A program made the translations under genes and the position numbers. A DNA stretch of 64,000 bases from positions 1 to 64,000 of the forward strand of contig DXKH01000054.1 in assembly GCA_019415335.1 (NCBI GenBank), given 5' to 3'. Within the stretch, counting starts at the first letter, position 1; each line of letters begins with the position of its first letter. The notes beneath the pieces are model-generated. The model was not told where the DNA came from. It saw only the letters and a program-made list of their open reading frames with translations, and searched no databases. This document shows positions 5,488 to 14,698 of this stretch, piece by piece. The DNA is from Citrobacter sp. GTDB lineage: Bacteria; Pseudomonadota; Gammaproteobacteria; Enterobacterales; Enterobacteriaceae.

Positions 5488-6789
5488 TCAGGCGCGCTTG
5501 GCGCGACGTTCAGCAATAAATGCCACCAGGAAAACAGCGCCAATCAGGTCAAAGAAACCCATGGCAATGAAGAGTGGGTTAAAGCCGATTTTGTCAGCCG
5601 TAACACCAATCAAAAGGGAGAAAAGGAAGCTGGCGATCCACGCCGCCGAACCACGCATGCCGTTGACGGTGGCCATCTGGCCTTTATCAAACGACTCGAC
5701 AACGAGCGCACTCAGCATGCAGGAGATGATCTGATGCCCGAAGCCGCCGATGGAGATCAGCACAATGGTGATATAGGGATCGCGGGTAATGGCGACGATC
5801 CCCAATGAGATCATCAAAAATGCGCCGGTCACCGAGCTTGCCACCACCGAGTTGACGCGGGAGCAGCCGAACAGGCGGGTGTATAAACGCGTCAGATAGC
5901 CGCTTGCCACGCTGCCGAGATCGGCGGCCAGGAACGGTAGCCAGGCAAACATCGCGATCTGCTTCAGATCCATACCGTGTTCTTTAGCGAGATACAGCGG
6001 TACCCAGAAGCTCAGGACGGCCCAGGCCGGTTCCGCCATAAAAGCCGGGATGGCGATACCATAAAATCGCTTGTTTTTTGAGACGGTTTTTAACGCGGTC
6101 AGGAAAGGCAGTCTGACTGCTGGCGGTTCGTTATCCTGCTTAATAAAGGCCAGTTCATCTTTACTCAGATTCGGGTGTTGTTCCGGGTTGTGATAGAACG
6201 CCCACCACAGGATCACCCACAGCAACGCCAGCACGCCGGTAAACATAAACGCGCCCTGCCAGCCAAACGAGGCGTGTGCGAAGTAGATGATAGGCGGTGC
6301 GAGCATCGCGCCAATCGAGAAGCCTACGCCAGCCCAACCGGCAGCCACGGGACGTTCTGATTTTGGGAACCATTCGCCGATCGTTTTGGCGTTGGCCGGG
6401 GTTGCGGCGGCTTCCGAGGCACCCATAAAAAAGCGCAGAATCGCAAGGTGTACCCAGCTTCCGGCACCGGCATGAAAAATACACATCAGCGCCCAGATAC
6501 CGGCGCAAACCATAAAGCCAATTTTCAAACCAATCACATCGATCAGCCATCCGCATAACGGCTGGAAAATGGTGTAGGCGATCTGAAATGCGCCGACAAT
6601 CCACGAATATTGCTCGGTAGTGATACCCAGGCTCTCTTTCAGTTCCGGTGCCAGAATGCCTAATGAATTTCGGGTGATGTAGTTAACGGTGACGCCGAGT
6701 AAAAAAAGCACCAGCACGTACCAGCGCAGATTTTTTATGACGCGACGGGGTTTGCTTGCCGCAACGGTGTTGTTGATGTCCTGACTCAT
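5488..6789 (-). CDS. MFS transporter, ACS (anion:cation symporter) type
   Basis: Inner-membrane permease with about 12 hydrophobic segments. It resembles the ACS family (hexuronate, galactarate and related uptake): an early NYITRNSLGILAPEL segment, the RFFMGASEAAATPANAKTI motif, and GEWFP followed by ERP. The ATG at 6789 (protein begins MSQDINN) is chosen because GGAGA lies 8 bases upstream; the longer reading uses TTG. It is the first gene of an operon with the GH31 gene and probably imports its glycoside substrate. Substrate identity is inferred only from the neighbour. Confidence 0.87.
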   Translation of the reverse strand: MSQDINNTVAASKPRRVIKNLRWYVLVLFLLGVTVNYITRNSLGILAPELKESLGITTEQYSWIVGAFQIAYTIFQPLCGWLIDVIGLKIGFMVCAGIWALMCIFHAGAGSWVHLAILRFFMGASEAAATPANAKTIGEWFPKSERPVAAGWAGVGFSIGAMLAPPIIYFAHASFGWQGAFMFTGVLALLWVILWWAFYHNPEQHPNLSKDELAFIKQDNEPPAVRLPFLTALKTVSKNKRFYGIAIPAFMAEPAWAVLSFWVPLYLAKEHGMDLKQIAMFAWLPFLAADLGSVASGYLTRLYTRLFGCSRVNSVVASSVTGAFLMISLGIVAITRDPYITIVLISIGGFGHQIISCMLSALVVESFDKGQMATVNGMRGSAAWIASFLFSLLIGVTADKIGFNPLFIAMGFFDLIGAVFLVAFIAERRAKRA

Positions 6790-6886: not shown

Positions 6887-6910
6887 ATACAACTAGTATG
6901 GAAGTTGTAT
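6887..6910. promoter_or_regulatory. Inverted repeat in divergent promoter region
   Basis: ATACAACT (6887-6894) and AGTTGTAT (6903-6910) form a perfect 8-bp inverted repeat with an 8-base spacer, midway between the divergent transporter operon and the LacI-type gene. A second weaker pair, ATCGCTT (6848-6854) and AAGCGAT (6871-6877), lies nearer the transporter. Either could be an operator. No binding protein can be assigned from sequence alone. Confidence 0.45.
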
Positions 6911-6998: not shown

Positions 6999-7008
6999 TT
7001 CATTCGAA
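6999..7008. promoter_or_regulatory. TTCATTCGAA box upstream of LacI-type gene
   Basis: An exact copy of the 10-bp core shared with the boxes in front of ybiU, ybiV and ybiY. It lies about 68 bases before the chosen start of the LacI-type regulator. Flanks differ from the other three copies (AATA before, GCC after), so this is the weakest member. Confidence 0.5.
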
Positions 7009-7075
7009 GCCTGTCATCGCTTCGATTTTTAGTCGTGAAAATTTTTTCATCGGGCAAATGGAGCCAGATCACAGA

Positions 7076-8149
7076 ATGGATAAAAGATTAAAAATCGCAG
7101 AAATTGCCGCCCGGACGCAGCTCTCGATCAGCACCGTTTCGCGTGTGCTGGCGGGTAAGGCCAACACCAGTGATAACGCACGACGCATTGTGCTGGAATG
7201 CGCGCGGGAACTGGGGGTGATGGAGGGGATGGCGGCGGGACGTCTGCTACTCAATAGCCTGATGGTCTTTGCCCCCCAGCGGGCATTTGATGAGCGGTCC
7301 GACATCTTTTACTACCGTGTGATCCAGAGTGTGAGCAAAGGGCTGGCCTCGCACGAAGTCCGACTGCGCTACTGCGCCCTCGAGGAAAATGACAGTGATG
7401 CGCAAGTGTTTCTGGCTCGAATGAATGAACCGGACACGCATGCCGCTATTTTGCTGGGGATCGACGATCCGCATATCCATGATTTAGCGGTTGATGTAGG
7501 AAAACCGTGCCTGTTGATTAACTGTCGCGACCGGCTTATGCGTCTTCCCGTGGTGGCACCCGATCATCGCGCGATTGGTGAGCGGGCGGCGGGCTATCTG
7601 TTTGAAATGGGGCATCGGGAGGTGATGAACGTTCTCTGCCTGCGCCGATACACAATGGAGCTGCGGTTAGCAGGGATCCGCGATGCGTGGCGGTCGAATA
7701 ACCTGAAGTTCAGTGACAAACGCGATCTGCTGGTGGCATCCAGCTTCAGTGCCAGAGAGACAGAGCATCTGGTCAGTGAATGGATCAATCAGAGAAAGGG
7801 GGAGGATTTACCCACTGCGTTTTTAGTCGGGGGGGATTTCATGGCGGCGGGGGTCATCAGCGCACTGCAAAAACAGGCGCTACGTGTACCGCAGGATGTT
7901 TCGGTGATGAGTATTGATGGCTTCAATCTGGCGTCGATTCAGGATGTTCCCTTAACGGCGGTACATGTTCCCCGGGATGAGTTGGGGACAGAGGCGGTGT
8001 ATATGCTCCAGCAGCGTCTGGTGCGCCCGGATGCGCCAGTCAGTACGTTGTTACTCAATGGTACGCTTGCGGTACGGGAGTCGGTCCGGCGGATACGTCA
8101 GGGGAAACGACGCACCGCCGTCGAACAGGAAGGTCTGTATGACAGTTAG
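7076..8149 (+). CDS. LacI family transcriptional regulator
   Basis: N-terminal LacI-type helix-turn-helix (KIAEIAARTQLSISTVSRVL, near residues 5-24) followed by a periplasmic-binding-protein-like effector domain with the usual DVSVMSIDG and FLVGGDFMAAGV segments. ATG 7076 gives 357 aa, close to the family norm. An ATG at 7058 and a longer frame from 6956 also exist. GGAG at 7060-7063 is the nearest ribosome site. Divergent from the transporter/GH31 operon, so it most likely controls that operon. Its stop overlaps the last bases of convergent ybiU. Not present at this place in K-12. Confidence 0.87.
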   Translation: MDKRLKIAEIAARTQLSISTVSRVLAGKANTSDNARRIVLECARELGVMEGMAAGRLLLNSLMVFAPQRAFDERSDIFYYRVIQSVSKGLASHEVRLRYCALEENDSDAQVFLARMNEPDTHAAILLGIDDPHIHDLAVDVGKPCLLINCRDRLMRLPVVAPDHRAIGERAAGYLFEMGHREVMNVLCLRRYTMELRLAGIRDAWRSNNLKFSDKRDLLVASSFSARETEHLVSEWINQRKGEDLPTAFLVGGDFMAAGVISALQKQALRVPQDVSVMSIDGFNLASIQDVPLTAVHVPRDELGTEAVYMLQQRLVRPDAPVSTLLLNGTLAVRESVRRIRQGKRRTAVEQEGLYDS

Positions 8150-9408
8150 CTCATCCCCAGCGCGCGCTTGCCGTGGATATTCAGATCCGCCAGCGTGAAG
8201 CGATCCTCCCAGTTTGTTTCGTAATCCTCACGCGGGAAATCGCCCGGTGATGCGCCTTTCTCCAGCGCGGCCTTCACGCGGTGCGCATAGGCCAGATTCT
8301 TCTCACACAGGGGCGCGGCGGGAATGTACATCACATTTCCCCAGCCCTGCTGATTGTCGACAGGCGCGACGGAGTGAATCACATCGCAATGCCACCAGAC
8401 GGAATCGCCTGCTTCCAGTGGTGGAATGCTGGTGAGTGCTTCAATCAGCAGGGGATGCCACTGTTCGGATATCGGCAGTACCCGGCCAGGTGCGACACCG
8501 CACAGTTCATCTTCCGGGACATCATCCAGCAGAGGACGTAACAGCACATACGCCATGGCTTCCGGAATGGGCACGACATGCAGCAGACCCTGACCGGGCA
8601 GCATATCAGACAGCGCGGTCCAGCCCTGGAAGGTGCGGAACACTGAACATTTGGTGGTGTTGTCCACCGTATACTCTTCCACTTCAGTACGATGGGCGGC
8701 ATGCCACGGATCGTATTCCGCCAGCTTGCCGTTAAACACATTCGCGAAGACACGCTGATAGGCCGGCAGCAACCAGCGTTCCAGCGCGCCGGAATCGGTG
8801 TGGGCGCCGAGCCCTTTTGACGTGGTGCCCGGCGGGCGGCGGCGGATCCTGTCCGGGTAGATCACGCTGACATCCGGGTTAAACCACTGCTTGCCCTCGC
8901 TTTCAAAAGTCCACAGACGGTTGAGGAACGACTGCACGTTCGCCATCTCTTCACTCTGTCGGGCCTGCATTTGCGCCTGCGACCAGTAGATCGGATAGAT
9001 CTCCGGACGCGAAGCCGTGAGGGTGCCAAAAAAGTTATCGCCTGGCCCTTTATACACCTCGTCAAAGTGGTTTTTATCCAGATAGTCCAGCATCGACTGA
9101 TCCCACGCCAGCGCCTGTTCACGCGGGAAGTGACCCTTGATGACCGCACAGCCGCGATGTTTGATCTGTTCACGCTGCTGCGCCGTGATGGTGCCAGCGC
9201 TGATATCAGCATACGACAGCTCAGGCCACACCGGGGCACCCTGGGCTTTAAGCGCATTAATTTCCGCCACGCGGGTGGCAATGGTATCGCTAATCTGGCT
9301 GAAGATCTGCTGGACGTCGCCGAGTTGCGCCCGCAGTTCCTGCTTCATCTGACGGATCGCCGCTTTGTGATCGACCGGTAATGTGTCGCTTGTGAAGGTA
9401 AAAGCCAT
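8146..9408 (-). CDS. ybiU: YbiU, DUF1479 family protein
   Basis: YbiU family protein of unknown function; 420 aa, with E. coli YbiU of about the same size. The fold is related to 2-oxoglutarate/Fe(II) oxygenases. A candidate metal site is seen in AHTDSGALERWL (His-x-Asp) with a distal His in WWHCDVIHSV. ATG 9408 follows an AGGTGG ribosome site; the longer reading begins at GTG 9414. The TTCATTCGAA box lies just upstream of the ribosome site, where a bound repressor would block transcription. Its 3' end overlaps the end of the LacI-type gene. Confidence 0.9.
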   Translation of the reverse strand: MAFTFTSDTLPVDHKAAIRQMKQELRAQLGDVQQIFSQISDTIATRVAEINALKAQGAPVWPELSYADISAGTITAQQREQIKHRGCAVIKGHFPREQALAWDQSMLDYLDKNHFDEVYKGPGDNFFGTLTASRPEIYPIYWSQAQMQARQSEEMANVQSFLNRLWTFESEGKQWFNPDVSVIYPDRIRRRPPGTTSKGLGAHTDSGALERWLLPAYQRVFANVFNGKLAEYDPWHAAHRTEVEEYTVDNTTKCSVFRTFQGWTALSDMLPGQGLLHVVPIPEAMAYVLLRPLLDDVPEDELCGVAPGRVLPISEQWHPLLIEALTSIPPLEAGDSVWWHCDVIHSVAPVDNQQGWGNVMYIPAAPLCEKNLAYAHRVKAALEKGASPGDFPREDYETNWEDRFTLADLNIHGKRALGMS

Positions 9409-9419
9409 AACCACCTCGC

Positions 9420-9436
9420 ATAACTTTCATTCGAAA
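9420..9436. promoter_or_regulatory. CTTTCATTCGAAA box, ybiU
   Basis: ATAACTTTCATTCGAAA, a 17-base string identical to the one in front of ybiY (minus strand there). It lies between a plausible minus-strand promoter (TTGCAT, 18 bases, TATTAT) and the ybiU start codon, a position typical of a repressor operator. Confidence 0.6.
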
Positions 9437-9556
9437 CTAATTTAACTTACAGTTGATAATATAAGTTATAAAAAAGTTAATGCAAGTTTAAATTTTGAGG
9501 TGATGAACAGGAGGGAAAGAAAATGAAACCGGAACAGGGTGCTCCGGTTATTGCCG

Positions 9557-10372
9557 TCACACGTTGAAGGGAGCGGTGTTATCCAGCACAGCCTGAATTA
9601 CGTTCAGTGCGCCCTGATGATTGTTGTCATCTGTCTGATAGCGGGAGAGTGCCTTGATACTGTCGGTGGCATTCGCCATGGCGAAAGAGTAGTGCGCCAT
9701 TTTCAACATTTCCGCATCATTGCCGCTGTCGCCAATGGCGACCACTTCTTTCGGTGAAAGGTTCCAGCGTTTCAGCAACCGGCTAATGCCATTGGCTTTG
9801 TGGAGTCCGGGAATGATCAGATCGATAAAGCCGAAACCGCTGGTCACGGGTTTCATAATGCCGTCCAGCGCCGTATGCAGGTGATCGATAACCAGCGGGA
9901 TCTGCTGGTCCGGTAGATTCAGCGAAAACTTAAACAGCACGTCGTCGATGTCGTGATAGTCCTTCACCGGCTTCAGGCGGTGGTAGTGCTTTGACATGAG
10001 TGCAACAAAGGACTCCGGCGCGTCTTCACTGACGTAAGCGCTTTGCAAACCGCACGCCACAAAGTTGAGCTGTTTATCTTTGAGCAATTCGCCGATCACG
10101 CTCCGTGATTCATGGCGGGTGAGTTCGCCATGAAAAAGCTGTTTGCCATGCTCAAACACCAGCGCGCCGTTTTCGGCAACGAAAGAGATCTCGTCTTTGA
10201 GTTCGGGGAAGAAAGAGATGAGCTGAAAATACTGATTGCCGCTGGCGACGACAAACTCAATGTTGCGTTTCTTTAGCTCGTGGTACTGCGCCATAAAACG
10301 TGCGTGATCGTACTTTTTGGCGTCATTGAGAAAAGTTCCGTCCATATCGGTGACGATAACTTTAACGGTCAT
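9557..10372 (-). CDS. ybiV: Sugar phosphatase YbiV (SupH), HAD superfamily
   Basis: Cof-type HAD phosphatase; the E. coli protein hydrolyses sugar phosphates such as fructose 1-phosphate. The catalytic motif DMDGTFL lies at the N-terminus (nucleophile Asp9, acid/base Asp11), and [10 protein letters not shown] is the C-terminal Mg-binding motif. ATG 10372 is chosen because AGGAGC sits just upstream and it gives 271 aa, the E. coli length. A paralogue, ybjI, lies at 33.2 kb. The CTTTCATTCGAAA box is about 70 bases upstream. Confidence 0.93.
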
Positions 10373-10441
10373 ATAAAGCTCCTGGCTCAAAACTGCGACC
10401 AGAAACATTTTAATAACAATGTGACCTAAAGCACAAATTTA

Positions 10442-10454
10442 TTTCGAATGAAAG
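10442..10454. promoter_or_regulatory. CTTTCATTCGAAA box, ybiV
   Basis: TTTCGAATGAAAG on the plus strand, the exact reverse complement of the 13-base box at ybiU and ybiY. It lies upstream of ybiV and before the BIME that separates ybiV from ybiW. Confidence 0.58.
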
Positions 10455-10471
10455 CGGTGGTAGGGGATGTG

Positions 10472-10558
10472 AAGGCCGGATAAGGCGTTCACGCCGTCAT
10501 CCGGCAGGAACGCTGCATCATTGCCGGATGGCGACACATCAGCGTCTCATCCGGCCTG
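10472..10558. repeat. REP/BIME element
   Basis: Two palindromic units: GGCCGGATAAGGCG paired with CGCCGTCATCCGGC, then TTGCCGGATGGCGAC paired with a TCATCCGGCCT arm. This is the usual enterobacterial BIME layout, between the 3' end of ybiW and the ybiV promoter. Confidence 0.85.
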
Positions 10559-10567
10559 AGGGGCAAA

Positions 10568-13000
10568 TTACAACATATGTTCAGTACGGGCGATAATATC
10601 GTCCTGCGCGTCTGGTGAAAGCGCGGTGAAGAAGGCGGAATAACCGGCCACACGGACCACCAGATCACGATACTGATCCGGGTGCTTTTTCGCCTCCAGC
10701 AGGGTTTCGCGCGACACGATGTTGTACTGAATGTGCCAGCCTTTGTGCTCTTCAAAGAAGGTCCGCAGCAGAATCATCAGTTTCTGTTTGTCAGACTCAT
10801 TCTCCAGCGTTGCCGGGTTCAGCTTCTGGTTCAATAGCACGCCGCCCAGAATCGAACCGGTAGGCAGTTTGCCGACGGAACCAATCACTGCGGTTGGACC
10901 CAGATGGTCAGTACCGGATGCCGGGCTTGCCCCTTCAGCCAGCGGGGTATGCGCTTTACGACCATCCGGTGTCGCCATGGTTGCCGCGCCAAACGGCACG
11001 TTTGCCGAGATAGACGAGGTGCCCGCGTAGTAATTACCGCCGACCGGGCCGCGTCCGTAACGCGGGTTATGGTACTGCTTCAGTTCATCGATATAGGTCT
11101 GATAAGCACGAGCCAGCAGGGTGTCGACGGTGTCATCATCGTTGCCATACTTCGGCGCGCCGTTGATTAAACGCTGGCGCAACTGCTCGTGGGTCAGACC
11201 GTCAAAATCATCGGCCAGTGCCGCCGCCAGCTGTTGCTGACCGATGGCTCCCTGTTCAAAGACCAGTTTTTTCACCGCGGCCAGGCTGTTGCCGAGATTG
11301 GCGATACCGACCTGCAAGCCGGATACCCAGTCATACTTCGCCCCACCTTGCTTAATGCTCTTCGCCCGCTCAATGCAGTCGTCCACCAGCGCGGAGCAGA
11401 GAATATCGTGTACGTTCTCTTCCAGCATGGTGTCGACCACATATTCAATCTCAATCGATTTGCGCGTGTAGTAGCGGATCTGGGTATCCCACGCCGCCAT
11501 CACCTCATCGAAATTGTCGAAGTTACCGGCGGAAAGCGCTTTTTCCTGCGGCAGGAAGACTTTTCCGCTGGTAGCGTCACGACCGCCTTCCAGCGCGGCC
11601 AGCATTACGCGGGCAAAGTTGATAAAGCTCATGCCGGTGCAGCGGTAGCCCCACTTGCCGCCCACGGCGGTTTCGATGCAGCCAATCGCCGCGTAATCGT
11701 AGGCGTCCTGCGGCTCAATACCGAGTTTGATGAATTCCGGGATCACAATTTCGTCGTTGTTAAAGGCCGGCATGCCAAAGCCACAACGGATCACCTGTAC
11801 ACAGGCATCTAGGAAGTCATTGCTCATCCCGGCGTGATAACGCACGCTGAGGTTAGGCTGGGTGGAACGCAGACGACCGCAGGATTCAAGGATCGCGTAA
11901 GAAAGCGGATTGACCGCATCCAGCGGCTGACCGTTGACCAGGTTTTGTCCGCCAATGGTGACGTTCTGATACAACGGGCTGCCTGCGGAAGCCTTAGAGT
12001 GCGAGCCGGAGCGGATTTTGTTCACTTCCAGCAGCTTCAGCCAGCAACTGTGCAGGAGTTCAATCGCGTGTTCGCGGTCCAGCGACGGGTTCAACTCCAC
12101 GTCACGGCGATAGTACGGATAAAGATACTGGTCCATGCGCCCGAACGACACCGAGTGACCGTTGGACTCAATTTGCAGAATCAACTGGATGAAGTAGCAC
12201 AGTTGCAGCGCCTGCCAGAACGTCTGCGGCGGCTGGTGGGCAATCAGATCGCAGTTTTCCGCCATCGCCAGCAGTTCGTTACGACGGCTGATGCGAGTCT
12301 CTTCGCTCGCCATTTTACGCGCCAGTTCGGCGAAGCGGGCAATGTGGTCGCTGACGGCAACCAGCACAATATCAATGGCTTTCAGAAACTGTTCGCCATG
12401 CAGATCGTCGAGAACGGTCAGGTTAATGCGTGAACGGCGCTCCGCGACTTTTTCCCGCAGGCCGTCGATGCCTTTTTCCAGCAGCAGCGGGAAGTTCACC
12501 GCCAGGTGCGCGTCGCCAGAGGTCATGTTGCCTTCGGCTTTGATAATACCGGTTTCCAGTAACCCTTTTTGCTCATCGGTAAACATGCCGTAGCAGCGGT
12601 CCTGAACGGTCTGGCCGCGCCACCACGGGCAGACCGCATGCAACACGCGCTTATTCTCTTCACTGACCGCAAAACCGGCCCCCGGTCTGTCCGCCAGATC
12701 GTCGATCTCTTTTTCAATCCACGAGACGGTGTATTCCGGGAAAATCGGCGCAGCGCGCACTTCGCTTGCCTGGTTGCCGATGATCAGTTCGTCGTGTTTG
12801 ATCCAGATGGTTCGTTGTGCCAGATGATGCGCCAGTGCCAGTGCGCGGCGGACCGGAATCGGCTTGTCCAGATGCTGCTGATACATTTCGGTGTAATGCT
12901 GCGCACGTTCGGTACAGACTGGCGGTTTCACGATGTGCACCAGCGCGGTTTTGTGCGCTTTGATGCGGTCGCTGAGCGTATCCAGTTTCAGTTGGGTCAT
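10568..13000 (-). CDS. ybiW: Glycyl-radical enzyme YbiW/PflF (PFL-like)
   Basis: Oxygen-sensitive glycyl-radical enzyme, 810 aa. The radical glycine is Gly786 in VRVAGYSAFF. The active-site Cys is single, Cys441 in GCIETAVGG, with Glu443. Pyruvate formate-lyase has two adjacent Cys, so this looks more like the glycerol/diol dehydratase-type eliminases than true PFL. The substrate of E. coli YbiW is not firmly known. It follows its activase gene ybiY on the same transcript with a 4-base gap, so the pair is made together. Confidence 0.92.
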   Translation of the reverse strand: MTQLKLDTLSDRIKAHKTALVHIVKPPVCTERAQHYTEMYQQHLDKPIPVRRALALAHHLAQRTIWIKHDELIIGNQASEVRAAPIFPEYTVSWIEKEIDDLADRPGAGFAVSEENKRVLHAVCPWWRGQTVQDRCYGMFTDEQKGLLETGIIKAEGNMTSGDAHLAVNFPLLLEKGIDGLREKVAERRSRINLTVLDDLHGEQFLKAIDIVLVAVSDHIARFAELARKMASEETRISRRNELLAMAENCDLIAHQPPQTFWQALQLCYFIQLILQIESNGHSVSFGRMDQYLYPYYRRDVELNPSLDREHAIELLHSCWLKLLEVNKIRSGSHSKASAGSPLYQNVTIGGQNLVNGQPLDAVNPLSYAILESCGRLRSTQPNLSVRYHAGMSNDFLDACVQVIRCGFGMPAFNNDEIVIPEFIKLGIEPQDAYDYAAIGCIETAVGGKWGYRCTGMSFINFARVMLAALEGGRDATSGKVFLPQEKALSAGNFDNFDEVMAAWDTQIRYYTRKSIEIEYVVDTMLEENVHDILCSALVDDCIERAKSIKQGGAKYDWVSGLQVGIANLGNSLAAVKKLVFEQGAIGQQQLAAALADDFDGLTHEQLRQRLINGAPKYGNDDDTVDTLLARAYQTYIDELKQYHNPRYGRGPVGGNYYAGTSSISANVPFGAATMATPDGRKAHTPLAEGASPASGTDHLGPTAVIGSVGKLPTGSILGGVLLNQKLNPATLENESDKQKLMILLRTFFEEHKGWHIQYNIVSRETLLEAKKHPDQYRDLVVRVAGYSAFFTALSPDAQDDIIARTEHML

Positions 13001-13004
13001 GGGA

Positions 13005-13904
13005 TTATCCTCGTAAAGTCGCGGTCAAACCTTTCGTGCAGGCGTACTGCTGCGCAAAGGCGAGCAGATCGGGTGCATCCAGCGGCTTATCCGGCGCGTT
13101 GTAGGGTTGGCTGAGTAAGTGGTATTTGTTGATGCCCAACGTGTGGTAGGGCAGAAAGTGAATCTCGCCAACATGCAGTTCATCGGCGGCAAAATCGGTA
13201 ATTGCTTTAATGGCCTCTTCATCAGCGTTAAACCCCTGAACCAGCGGAACGCGGATGATGATTTTTTTCCCGGCAGCGGCGAGCGTTTTCAGGTTTTCCA
13301 GCACGCGTGATGCGCTGCCATCCGTCCATTGCTTAAACGGCGCGTCGGCAACGTGTTTCAAATCCGCAAGGAACAGATCGATCCAGGGCAATGAAGGTTC
13401 AATGTATTTCCACGGTACATGCAGACAGGTTTCAACCGCGGTATGAATGCCCGCCTCGTGGCTGGCTTTAAACAGTGATGCGGCCAGCTCCGGCTGCATA
13501 AACGGTTCGCCGCCCGACAGCGTAATGCCACCGCCGCTGCGGTCATAAAACGGTTTATCGCGCAGGACGGCGGCCATTATCTCATCCACGCTTTTGATTT
13601 CGCCGCAGACGGTAAGCGCCTGAGTGGGACAACAGTCGGTCAGGCTGGCGAGATGCGCGTCAGTGAGTTTTTCACGATGGATAAGGAGGCCATTCAGCGC
13701 ACGCTCGATAACGCCTGGTGCCGCCTGGACGCAAAGCTCGCAGCCTTCGAGGCACAGGCGTGCGTCAAACAGCAGATCCTGCGTGCGTGCCCGGCTTTCC
13801 GGATTCTGACACCAGCGACAGCCCAGAGAGCATCCTTTAAGGAACACCACGGTACGGATACCGGGGCCATCGTGTGTAGAATAGCGCTGAATATTGAAAA
13901 TCAT
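13005..13904 (-). CDS. ybiY: Glycyl-radical enzyme activase YbiY (radical SAM)
   Basis: Radical SAM enzyme that would install the glycyl radical on YbiW. It has CxxxCxxC in [12 protein letters not shown] for the SAM cluster, then an extra Cys-rich stretch (CLEGCELC and [12 protein letters not shown]) for ferredoxin-like clusters, as in glycerol dehydratase activases. [11 protein letters not shown] is the SAM-binding GGE-type motif. ATG 13904 (begins MIFNIQRYS) is preceded by GAGG and gives 299 aa; the frame opens further upstream at 13973, but that part is not conserved in my memory of E. coli YbiY. First gene of the ybiY-ybiW operon. Confidence 0.92.
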
Positions 13905-13936
13905 AAACGGCCTCTTTTGTTTCGTATAAAGATTAA

Positions 13937-13958
13937 ATAACTTTCGAATGAAAGTTAT
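13937..13958. promoter_or_regulatory. Palindromic operator-like box, ybiY-ybiW
   Basis: ATAACTTTC (13937-13945), a GAAT spacer, then GAAAGTTAT (13950-13958): a perfect 9-bp inverted repeat containing the shared 13-base box. It overlaps a plausible minus-strand promoter (TTTCAT, 17 bases, TTTATA at 13925-13930), so a bound protein would block ybiY-ybiW. This is the most symmetrical of the four copies. Confidence 0.62.
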
Positions 13959-14035: not shown

Positions 14036-14698
14036 ATGGAACTCTATCTGGATACGTCCGACGTTGACGCGGTGAAAGCGCTGGCGCGAATTTTCCCGCT
14101 GGCGGGCGTGACCACTAACCCGAGTATTGTTGCGGCGGGTAAAAAGCCGCTGGACGTCTTACTGCCACAATTGCATGAAGCGATGGGAGGACAGGGGCGT
14201 CTGTTTGCCCAGGTAATGGCGACAACGGCGGAAGGGATGGTGAGCGATGCACGCAAACTTCGTGGGATCATGCCTGATATCGTGGTGAAAGTGCCGGTCA
14301 CGGCAGAAGGTCTTGCGGCGATCAAACGGCTAAAAGAGGAAGGTATCCCGACGCTGGGAACGGCGGTGTACGGTGCGGCGCAAGGCCTGCTGTCGGCGCT
14401 GGCGGGGGCAGAGTATGTTGCGCCTTACGTCAACCGCGTGGATGCGCAGGGCGGCGACGGTATTCAGACCGTCACCGATTTGCAGAATTTACTGAAGATG
14501 CATGCGCCGCATGCCAAAGTGCTGGCCGCCAGTTTCAAGACTCCGCGTCAGGCGCTGGATTGCCTGCTGGTGGGCTGTGAATCCATCACCTTACCGCTGG
14601 ACGTTGCCCAACAGTTGATTAGCTCTCCGGCTGTCGATGCGGCGGTGGCGAAGTTTGAACACGACTGGCAGAGTGCCTTTGGGCGAACCTCTATCTGA
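14036..14698 (+). CDS. fsaA: Fructose-6-phosphate aldolase FsaA
   Basis: Class I aldolase of the transaldolase family that cleaves fructose 6-phosphate to dihydroxyacetone and glyceraldehyde 3-phosphate. The Schiff-base lysine is Lys85 in [10 protein letters not shown] 14036 gives 220 aa, the E. coli length; the in-frame ATG at 14030 is too near the GAGGA ribosome site. Divergent from ybiY. The half-site CTTTCATT at 14000-14007 lies upstream, but without the CGAA half. Confidence 0.96.

Follow-up and report, generated by a model that had tools for sequence, protein, structure and literature searches.

The closest described system is the YciT regulon of Escherichia coli K-12. YciT is a DeoR-family regulator with ChIP-exo peaks upstream of ybiUVWY and fsaA, and deletion of yciT changes the expression of ybiV, ybiY and fsaA; the passages on YciT file it under osmolarity and count 49 sites, 23 of them within regulatory regions (PMC8464067). 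DNA chromatography, described in a preprint in its section on the ybiYW promoter, shows YciT enriched near position -5 of the predicted start, together with an activator near -20 whose identity is not given there, and ybiYW are expressed in the absence of oxygen (PMC12132413). YciT is also listed at phnA (PMC7567609). Of its targets, the glycyl radical enzyme YbiW is stated to cleave, strictly in the absence of oxygen, the 1,5-anhydroglucitol-6-phosphate formed by a phosphotransferase system, and 1,5-anhydroglucitol is present in most foods and is broken down anaerobically by gut bacteria (PMC12441222, citing Ma et al. for the cleavage). Proteomes of gut-grown bacteria contain more YbiW (PMC3136414), and in a second such study FsaA and GldA are up 163-fold and 3.5-fold, respectively, with no regulator listed for fsaA in the relevant part (PMC3686733).

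The locus described here, within a window comprising the whole 64-kb stretch of DNA analysed, shares with the E. coli regulon the targets ybiV, ybiY and fsaA, the predicted DeoR-family regulator and a palindromic motif (PMC8464067), this motif comparison resting on palindromy and target genes and not on motif letters. The passages on YciT in that study differ in giving an osmolarity role, and hold no operator letters, FNR partner, neighbourhood in other genera or inducer. The link between YciT and these targets is already known in E. coli, and the core of the present finding is that known regulon seen in a relative; new beyond the cited passages are a family-wide operator map, the pairing with a putative FNR site, a yciT-bearing gene cluster and a predicted box at bsmA. 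A literature search with the letters of the box found nothing relevant among the papers listed.

The 10-mer TTCATTCGAA has exactly four copies in the 64 kb, at 6999–7008 (+), 9426–9435 (+), 10443–10452 (-) and 13943–13952 (-) (Table 1). The mean chance expectation is 0.15 copies (about 0.1 in the preliminary description), and none of 100 shuffles reached four. An exact search bears out that description in the positions of the copies and the lack of others in the window, as well as in the 13 bases common to the ybiU, ybiV and ybiY copies (CTTTCATTCGAAA) and the perfect 9-bp inverted repeat with a 4-base spacer at ybiY (13937–13958). The stretch common to ybiU and ybiY is indeed longer than 13 bases, although it reads by eye as 18 and not the reported 17. 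TTTC-N4-GAAA has three sites in the window, at ybiU, ybiV and ybiY, and CTTTC-N4-GAAAG has one. Only a half-site had been attributed to fsaA; the CTTTCATT half-site does exist, although as a separate element upstream of fsaA in just one of 67 loci, and because the ybiY box sits within the divergent ybiY–fsaA intergenic region, 95 bp upstream of fsaA, that gene shares the full box.

Table 1. Positions of genes and of predicted regulatory elements in the window.
Feature	Coordinates	Strand	Remarks
10-mer before LacI gene, probably a chance copy	6999..7008	+	judged outside the regulon; in 1/48 LacI promoters
ybiU, DUF1479 protein (Pfam Gig2-like)	8146..9408	-	
Predicted YciT-type operator before ybiU, CTTTCATTCGAAAC	9424..9437		kept in 69/70 loci
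ybiV, HAD-type sugar phosphatase	9557..10372	-	
Candidate CRP-like site beside ybiV operator	10420..10435		at most 2 mismatches in 71/72 loci
Predicted YciT-type operator before ybiV, core TTTCGAATGAAA	10441..10454		kept in 71/72 loci
ybiW, glycyl radical enzyme	10568..13000	-	
ybiY, radical-SAM activating enzyme	13005..13904	-	
Candidate -10 element TTTAAT, ybiY promoter	13932..13937	-	read from the sequence; absent from promoter scan
Predicted YciT-type operator, divergent ybiY–fsaA region, perfect palindromic arms CTTTC-N4-GAAAG	13941..13954		kept in 82/82 loci
Candidate FNR-like site TTGACGTGCATCAA	13960..13973		centre 19 bp from operator centre
fsaA, fructose-6-phosphate aldolase family	14036..14698	+	

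The boxes were compared across 82 loci, consisting of the window, E. coli MG1655 and 80 loci kept of 343 encoding a YbiY relative, the closest being mostly Citrobacter. Allowing up to three mismatches to the 14-mer and counting only loci that hold the gene, the box is kept at ybiU in 69/70, at ybiV in 71/72 and at ybiY in 82/82 of these loci, which are relatives and not independent cases; the exceptions are L023 (no ybiU box) and L025 (no ybiV box). In MG1655 all three lie at the same genes as in the window. The TTTC and GAAA arms are near-invariant and the spacer varies (at ybiV: ATTC in 38, GAAT in 27 and others in 6), which in these alignments looks as expected for a symmetric site. The proposal that one regulator serves ybiU, ybiV and ybiY-ybiW is plausible in light of these counts, with fsaA added. 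The upstream region of ybiU (9440–9500) also has a TTGCATTAACT...TTAACTTA-like stretch that looks similar in each of the five loci compared, and could be a promoter or the site of another regulator.

The regulator of the three boxes is almost certainly YciT. The MG1655 protein has a DeoR helix-turn-helix and a sensor domain. A search of 50 genomes, taken from the 80 loci, found a single yciT match in every one. YciT is presumably also present in the organism of the window and would bind there. Among 247 genomes drawn across the order, YciT was matched in 42 (cut-off 1e-60) and YbiY in 23 (1e-90), and all 23 with YbiY also have YciT. The two genes lie within 5 kb of each other in 17 of the 23 and further apart in six. 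Counts of boxes and gene layout cover the 17 close loci (G238, G216, G130 and G258, with yciT more than 5 kb away, lie outside the box scan): fsaA is divergent from ybiY-ybiW-yciT in 15/17, the exceptions being L194, without a visible fsaA, and L191, in which it stands apart, and CTTTC-N4-GAAAG with at most one mismatch is found within 160 bp upstream of ybiY in 13/17 and upstream of yciT in 5/17. In 11 of the 19 genomes with yciT and no ybiY, a perfect CTTTC-N4-GAAAG lies immediately upstream of yciT, although flanks are alike in the eight loci compared and the 11 boxes amount to little more than a single case; yciT is next to ybiU in four of these 19, and in one of the four a perfect box precedes ybiU. 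From these arrangements the box appears to accompany yciT and not the LacI gene.

Several loci have other configurations. In L191 two YciT homologues (5691–6443 and 10413–11171) flank ybiY-ybiW, an arrangement seen in one genome, and in L220 (3194–5000) yciT is next to fragments of ybiW and to an fsa gene, which has the look of a decaying cluster. Seven loci (L197–L203) have CTTTC-N4-GAAAG over the last codons of an fsaA homologue, with no obvious promoter beside it, perhaps reflecting a coding constraint or a distant operator.

The preliminary description linked the boxes to the LacI-type gene nearby. On this rival reading the LacI-type protein would bind all four and tie its own transporter-glycosidase operon to ybiU, ybiV and ybiYW. 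There are four exact copies with one before the LacI gene, and this gene adjoins ybiU in 52/82 loci. However, where it is present the boxes are kept in 51/52 (ybiU), 51/52 (ybiV) and 52/52 (ybiY), and where it is absent in 18/18, 20/20 and 30/30; some of these 30 loci end early, and the 18 with ybiU extend 2.0–6.7 kb past it. The MG1655 locus has no LacI, MFS or GH31 gene and nonetheless has three boxes. When 25 whole genomes, 22 of them chosen because their locus lacks the gene, were searched for the LacI protein, 13 gave no match, five only matches of 42–49% identity, one a match of 56% and six matches of 71–90%, and all 13 without a match have the ybiY box. Of 48 intergenic regions between the MFS and LacI genes, one (that of the window) contains the 10-mer and none contains TTTC-N4-GAAA. 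The LacI-side copy has only the 10-mer in common with the others (its best 14-base match has four mismatches), scores -49.9 with a matrix whose training sites score at least 13.4, a matrix trained on related sites and used for ranking only, and looks like a chance occurrence. The LacI link therefore fails: the boxes are kept with or without the gene, the copy beside it is in 1/48 promoters, and a different regulator, YciT, is reported bound. As a general regulator of the boxes the LacI-type protein is already refuted, and any such role is very improbable, which removes a false link between its operon and the anhydro-sugar pathway. The MFS–LacI regions have elements of their own, ACAACTAGTATGGAAGTTGT, well conserved when 19 of the 48 regions are aligned, and TGAAAATTNTTTCA, in 31/48 (6889–6908 and 7036–7049 in the window), which by sequence are better candidate operators for the LacI-type protein than the TTCATTCGAA copy. 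The idea that the nearby GH31 enzyme, with alpha-glucosidases as its best solved relatives, might supply anhydro-sugars found no support.

That the repeat is a functionless chance cluster is hardly credible. The LacI-side copy does look random; for the other three boxes the idea is refuted by their conservation, and the shuffles and published YciT binding (PMC8464067, PMC12132413) also stand against it. There is a slightly greater, still small, chance that the boxes mainly serve another regulator, of the DeoR type or not, and that YciT binds them only secondarily, as the same core also lies before bsmA, near the gene of another DeoR-type regulator, ulaR. Against this, YciT has been located at ybiY by two published methods (PMC8464067, PMC12132413), and yciT adjoins ybiYW or ybiU in distant genomes. 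The three boxes are very probably YciT operators at ybiU, ybiV and ybiYW/fsaA, with a proposed FNR–YciT promoter at ybiY and a probable sugar-phosphate inducer.

The candidate partner site resembles TTGATN4ATCAA and is present before ybiY with zero to two mismatches in 82/82 loci. Some shuffled ybiY upstream regions also hold such a site (38/410), and it is thus the fixed spacing that carries the argument for FNR: the centre-to-centre distance to the YciT box is 19 bp in 81/82 loci and 21 bp in the other, and in the 17 distant loci it is 19 bp in 14 and 18 bp in one, with no pair in L190 and L194. A pair at 18–20 bp occurs in 3 of 4,950 shuffled regions. Only with a ybiY start near 13925, which the candidate -10 element would predict, would the centre of the FNR-like site lie about 41.5 bp upstream and fit a class II arrangement; the list from the promoter scan omits this promoter. 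The ybiYW promoter in the relevant section of PMC12132413 is alike in having YciT at the promoter, an activator ~15 bp upstream and expression without oxygen, and the order and rough distance fit the window. It differs in that FNR is unnamed in its main text, FNR being proposed here from the conserved site as a candidate for the unnamed activator. On the other side, ybiY, ybiW and fsaA all go unmentioned in the main text of a study of FNR binding (PMC3688515), fsaA has no regulator listed in PMC3686733, and the passages found in a literature search contain no statement that FNR controls these genes. At ybiV, the operator is accompanied by a CRP-like site with no more than two mismatches in nearly all loci (Table 1; shuffles 27/360).

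The three boxes mark a gene group for anaerobic sugar breakdown. YbiW of the window aligns along its entire length with solved chains that bear the name YbiW; FsaA and GldA presumably carry out later steps of anaerobic 1,5-anhydroglucitol breakdown. Since cleavage of 1,5-anhydroglucitol-6-phosphate is reported for YbiW, YciT is probably the repressor of that pathway. The source of this report involves the same enzyme and differs in that its passage is silent on regulation (PMC12441222). The abundance of YbiW, FsaA and GldA in gut-grown bacteria fits anaerobic induction. Sensor domains of DeoR-type regulators commonly bind sugar phosphates, and a pathway intermediate is therefore a likely inducer.

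In the circuit that we propose, YciT would control the ybiU, ybiV and divergent ybiYW/fsaA promoters through a symmetric dimer site with the core TTTC-N4-GAAA. The ybiY operator most likely occupies the promoter spacer, with the putative FNR site on one side and the -10 element on the other. FNR would turn the promoter on in the absence of oxygen and YciT would block it until released by a sugar phosphate, the probable inducer being a 1,5-anhydro-sugar in phosphorylated form or what is made from it. The present data show conservation, spacing and gene neighbourhood; that YciT represses, that FNR activates, what the inducer is, and the presence and binding of YciT in the organism of the window are what we infer. 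We lean, if only slightly, towards a broader reading in which YciT is by origin the local repressor dedicated to breaking down anhydro-sugars without oxygen. On this reading yciT, which distant members of the order have within an fsaA/ybiY-ybiW-yciT cluster, became separated from that cluster in the E. coli family, and the protein acts with FNR at a fixed composite promoter, answers to a 1,5-anhydro-sugar phosphate or a derived deoxyfructose phosphate, and has recruited bsmA as well. The list of YciT targets becomes a directly testable circuit, in which this orphan regulator has an exact operator together with candidates for its anaerobic activator and for the class of its inducer.

Exact boxes are few, since TTTCATTCGAAA is present at 3–6 copies per genome in eight genomes (0–1 for the reversed pattern) and CTTTCN4GAAAG is not enriched in them (4–9 per genome and 3–9 reversed); a wide regulon was therefore rejected. 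Additional sites in L082, L084, L088, L094, L123 and L125 have no context in common and were taken as chance. Three other named YciT targets were checked in MG1655: for cusF and ompX the eight top-ranked matrix matches include nothing comparable, and ybiO has CTTTC-N4-GAAAG upstream, inside a hairpin-like repeat. A longer form of the box, ATTTTCATTCGAAA, is found in 38/50 genomes (reversed pattern, 1/50). The gene bsmA is unnamed in the main text of PMC8464067, and the literature search found no paper naming both bsmA and YciT. At 18 of the 20 places inspected (L225–L233, L235–L243) ATTTTCATTCGAAA lies 64–65 bp before bsmA, a site much like it is present at this position in MG1655 (L223, near 7835), and bsmA is predicted from these sites to be a further YciT target.
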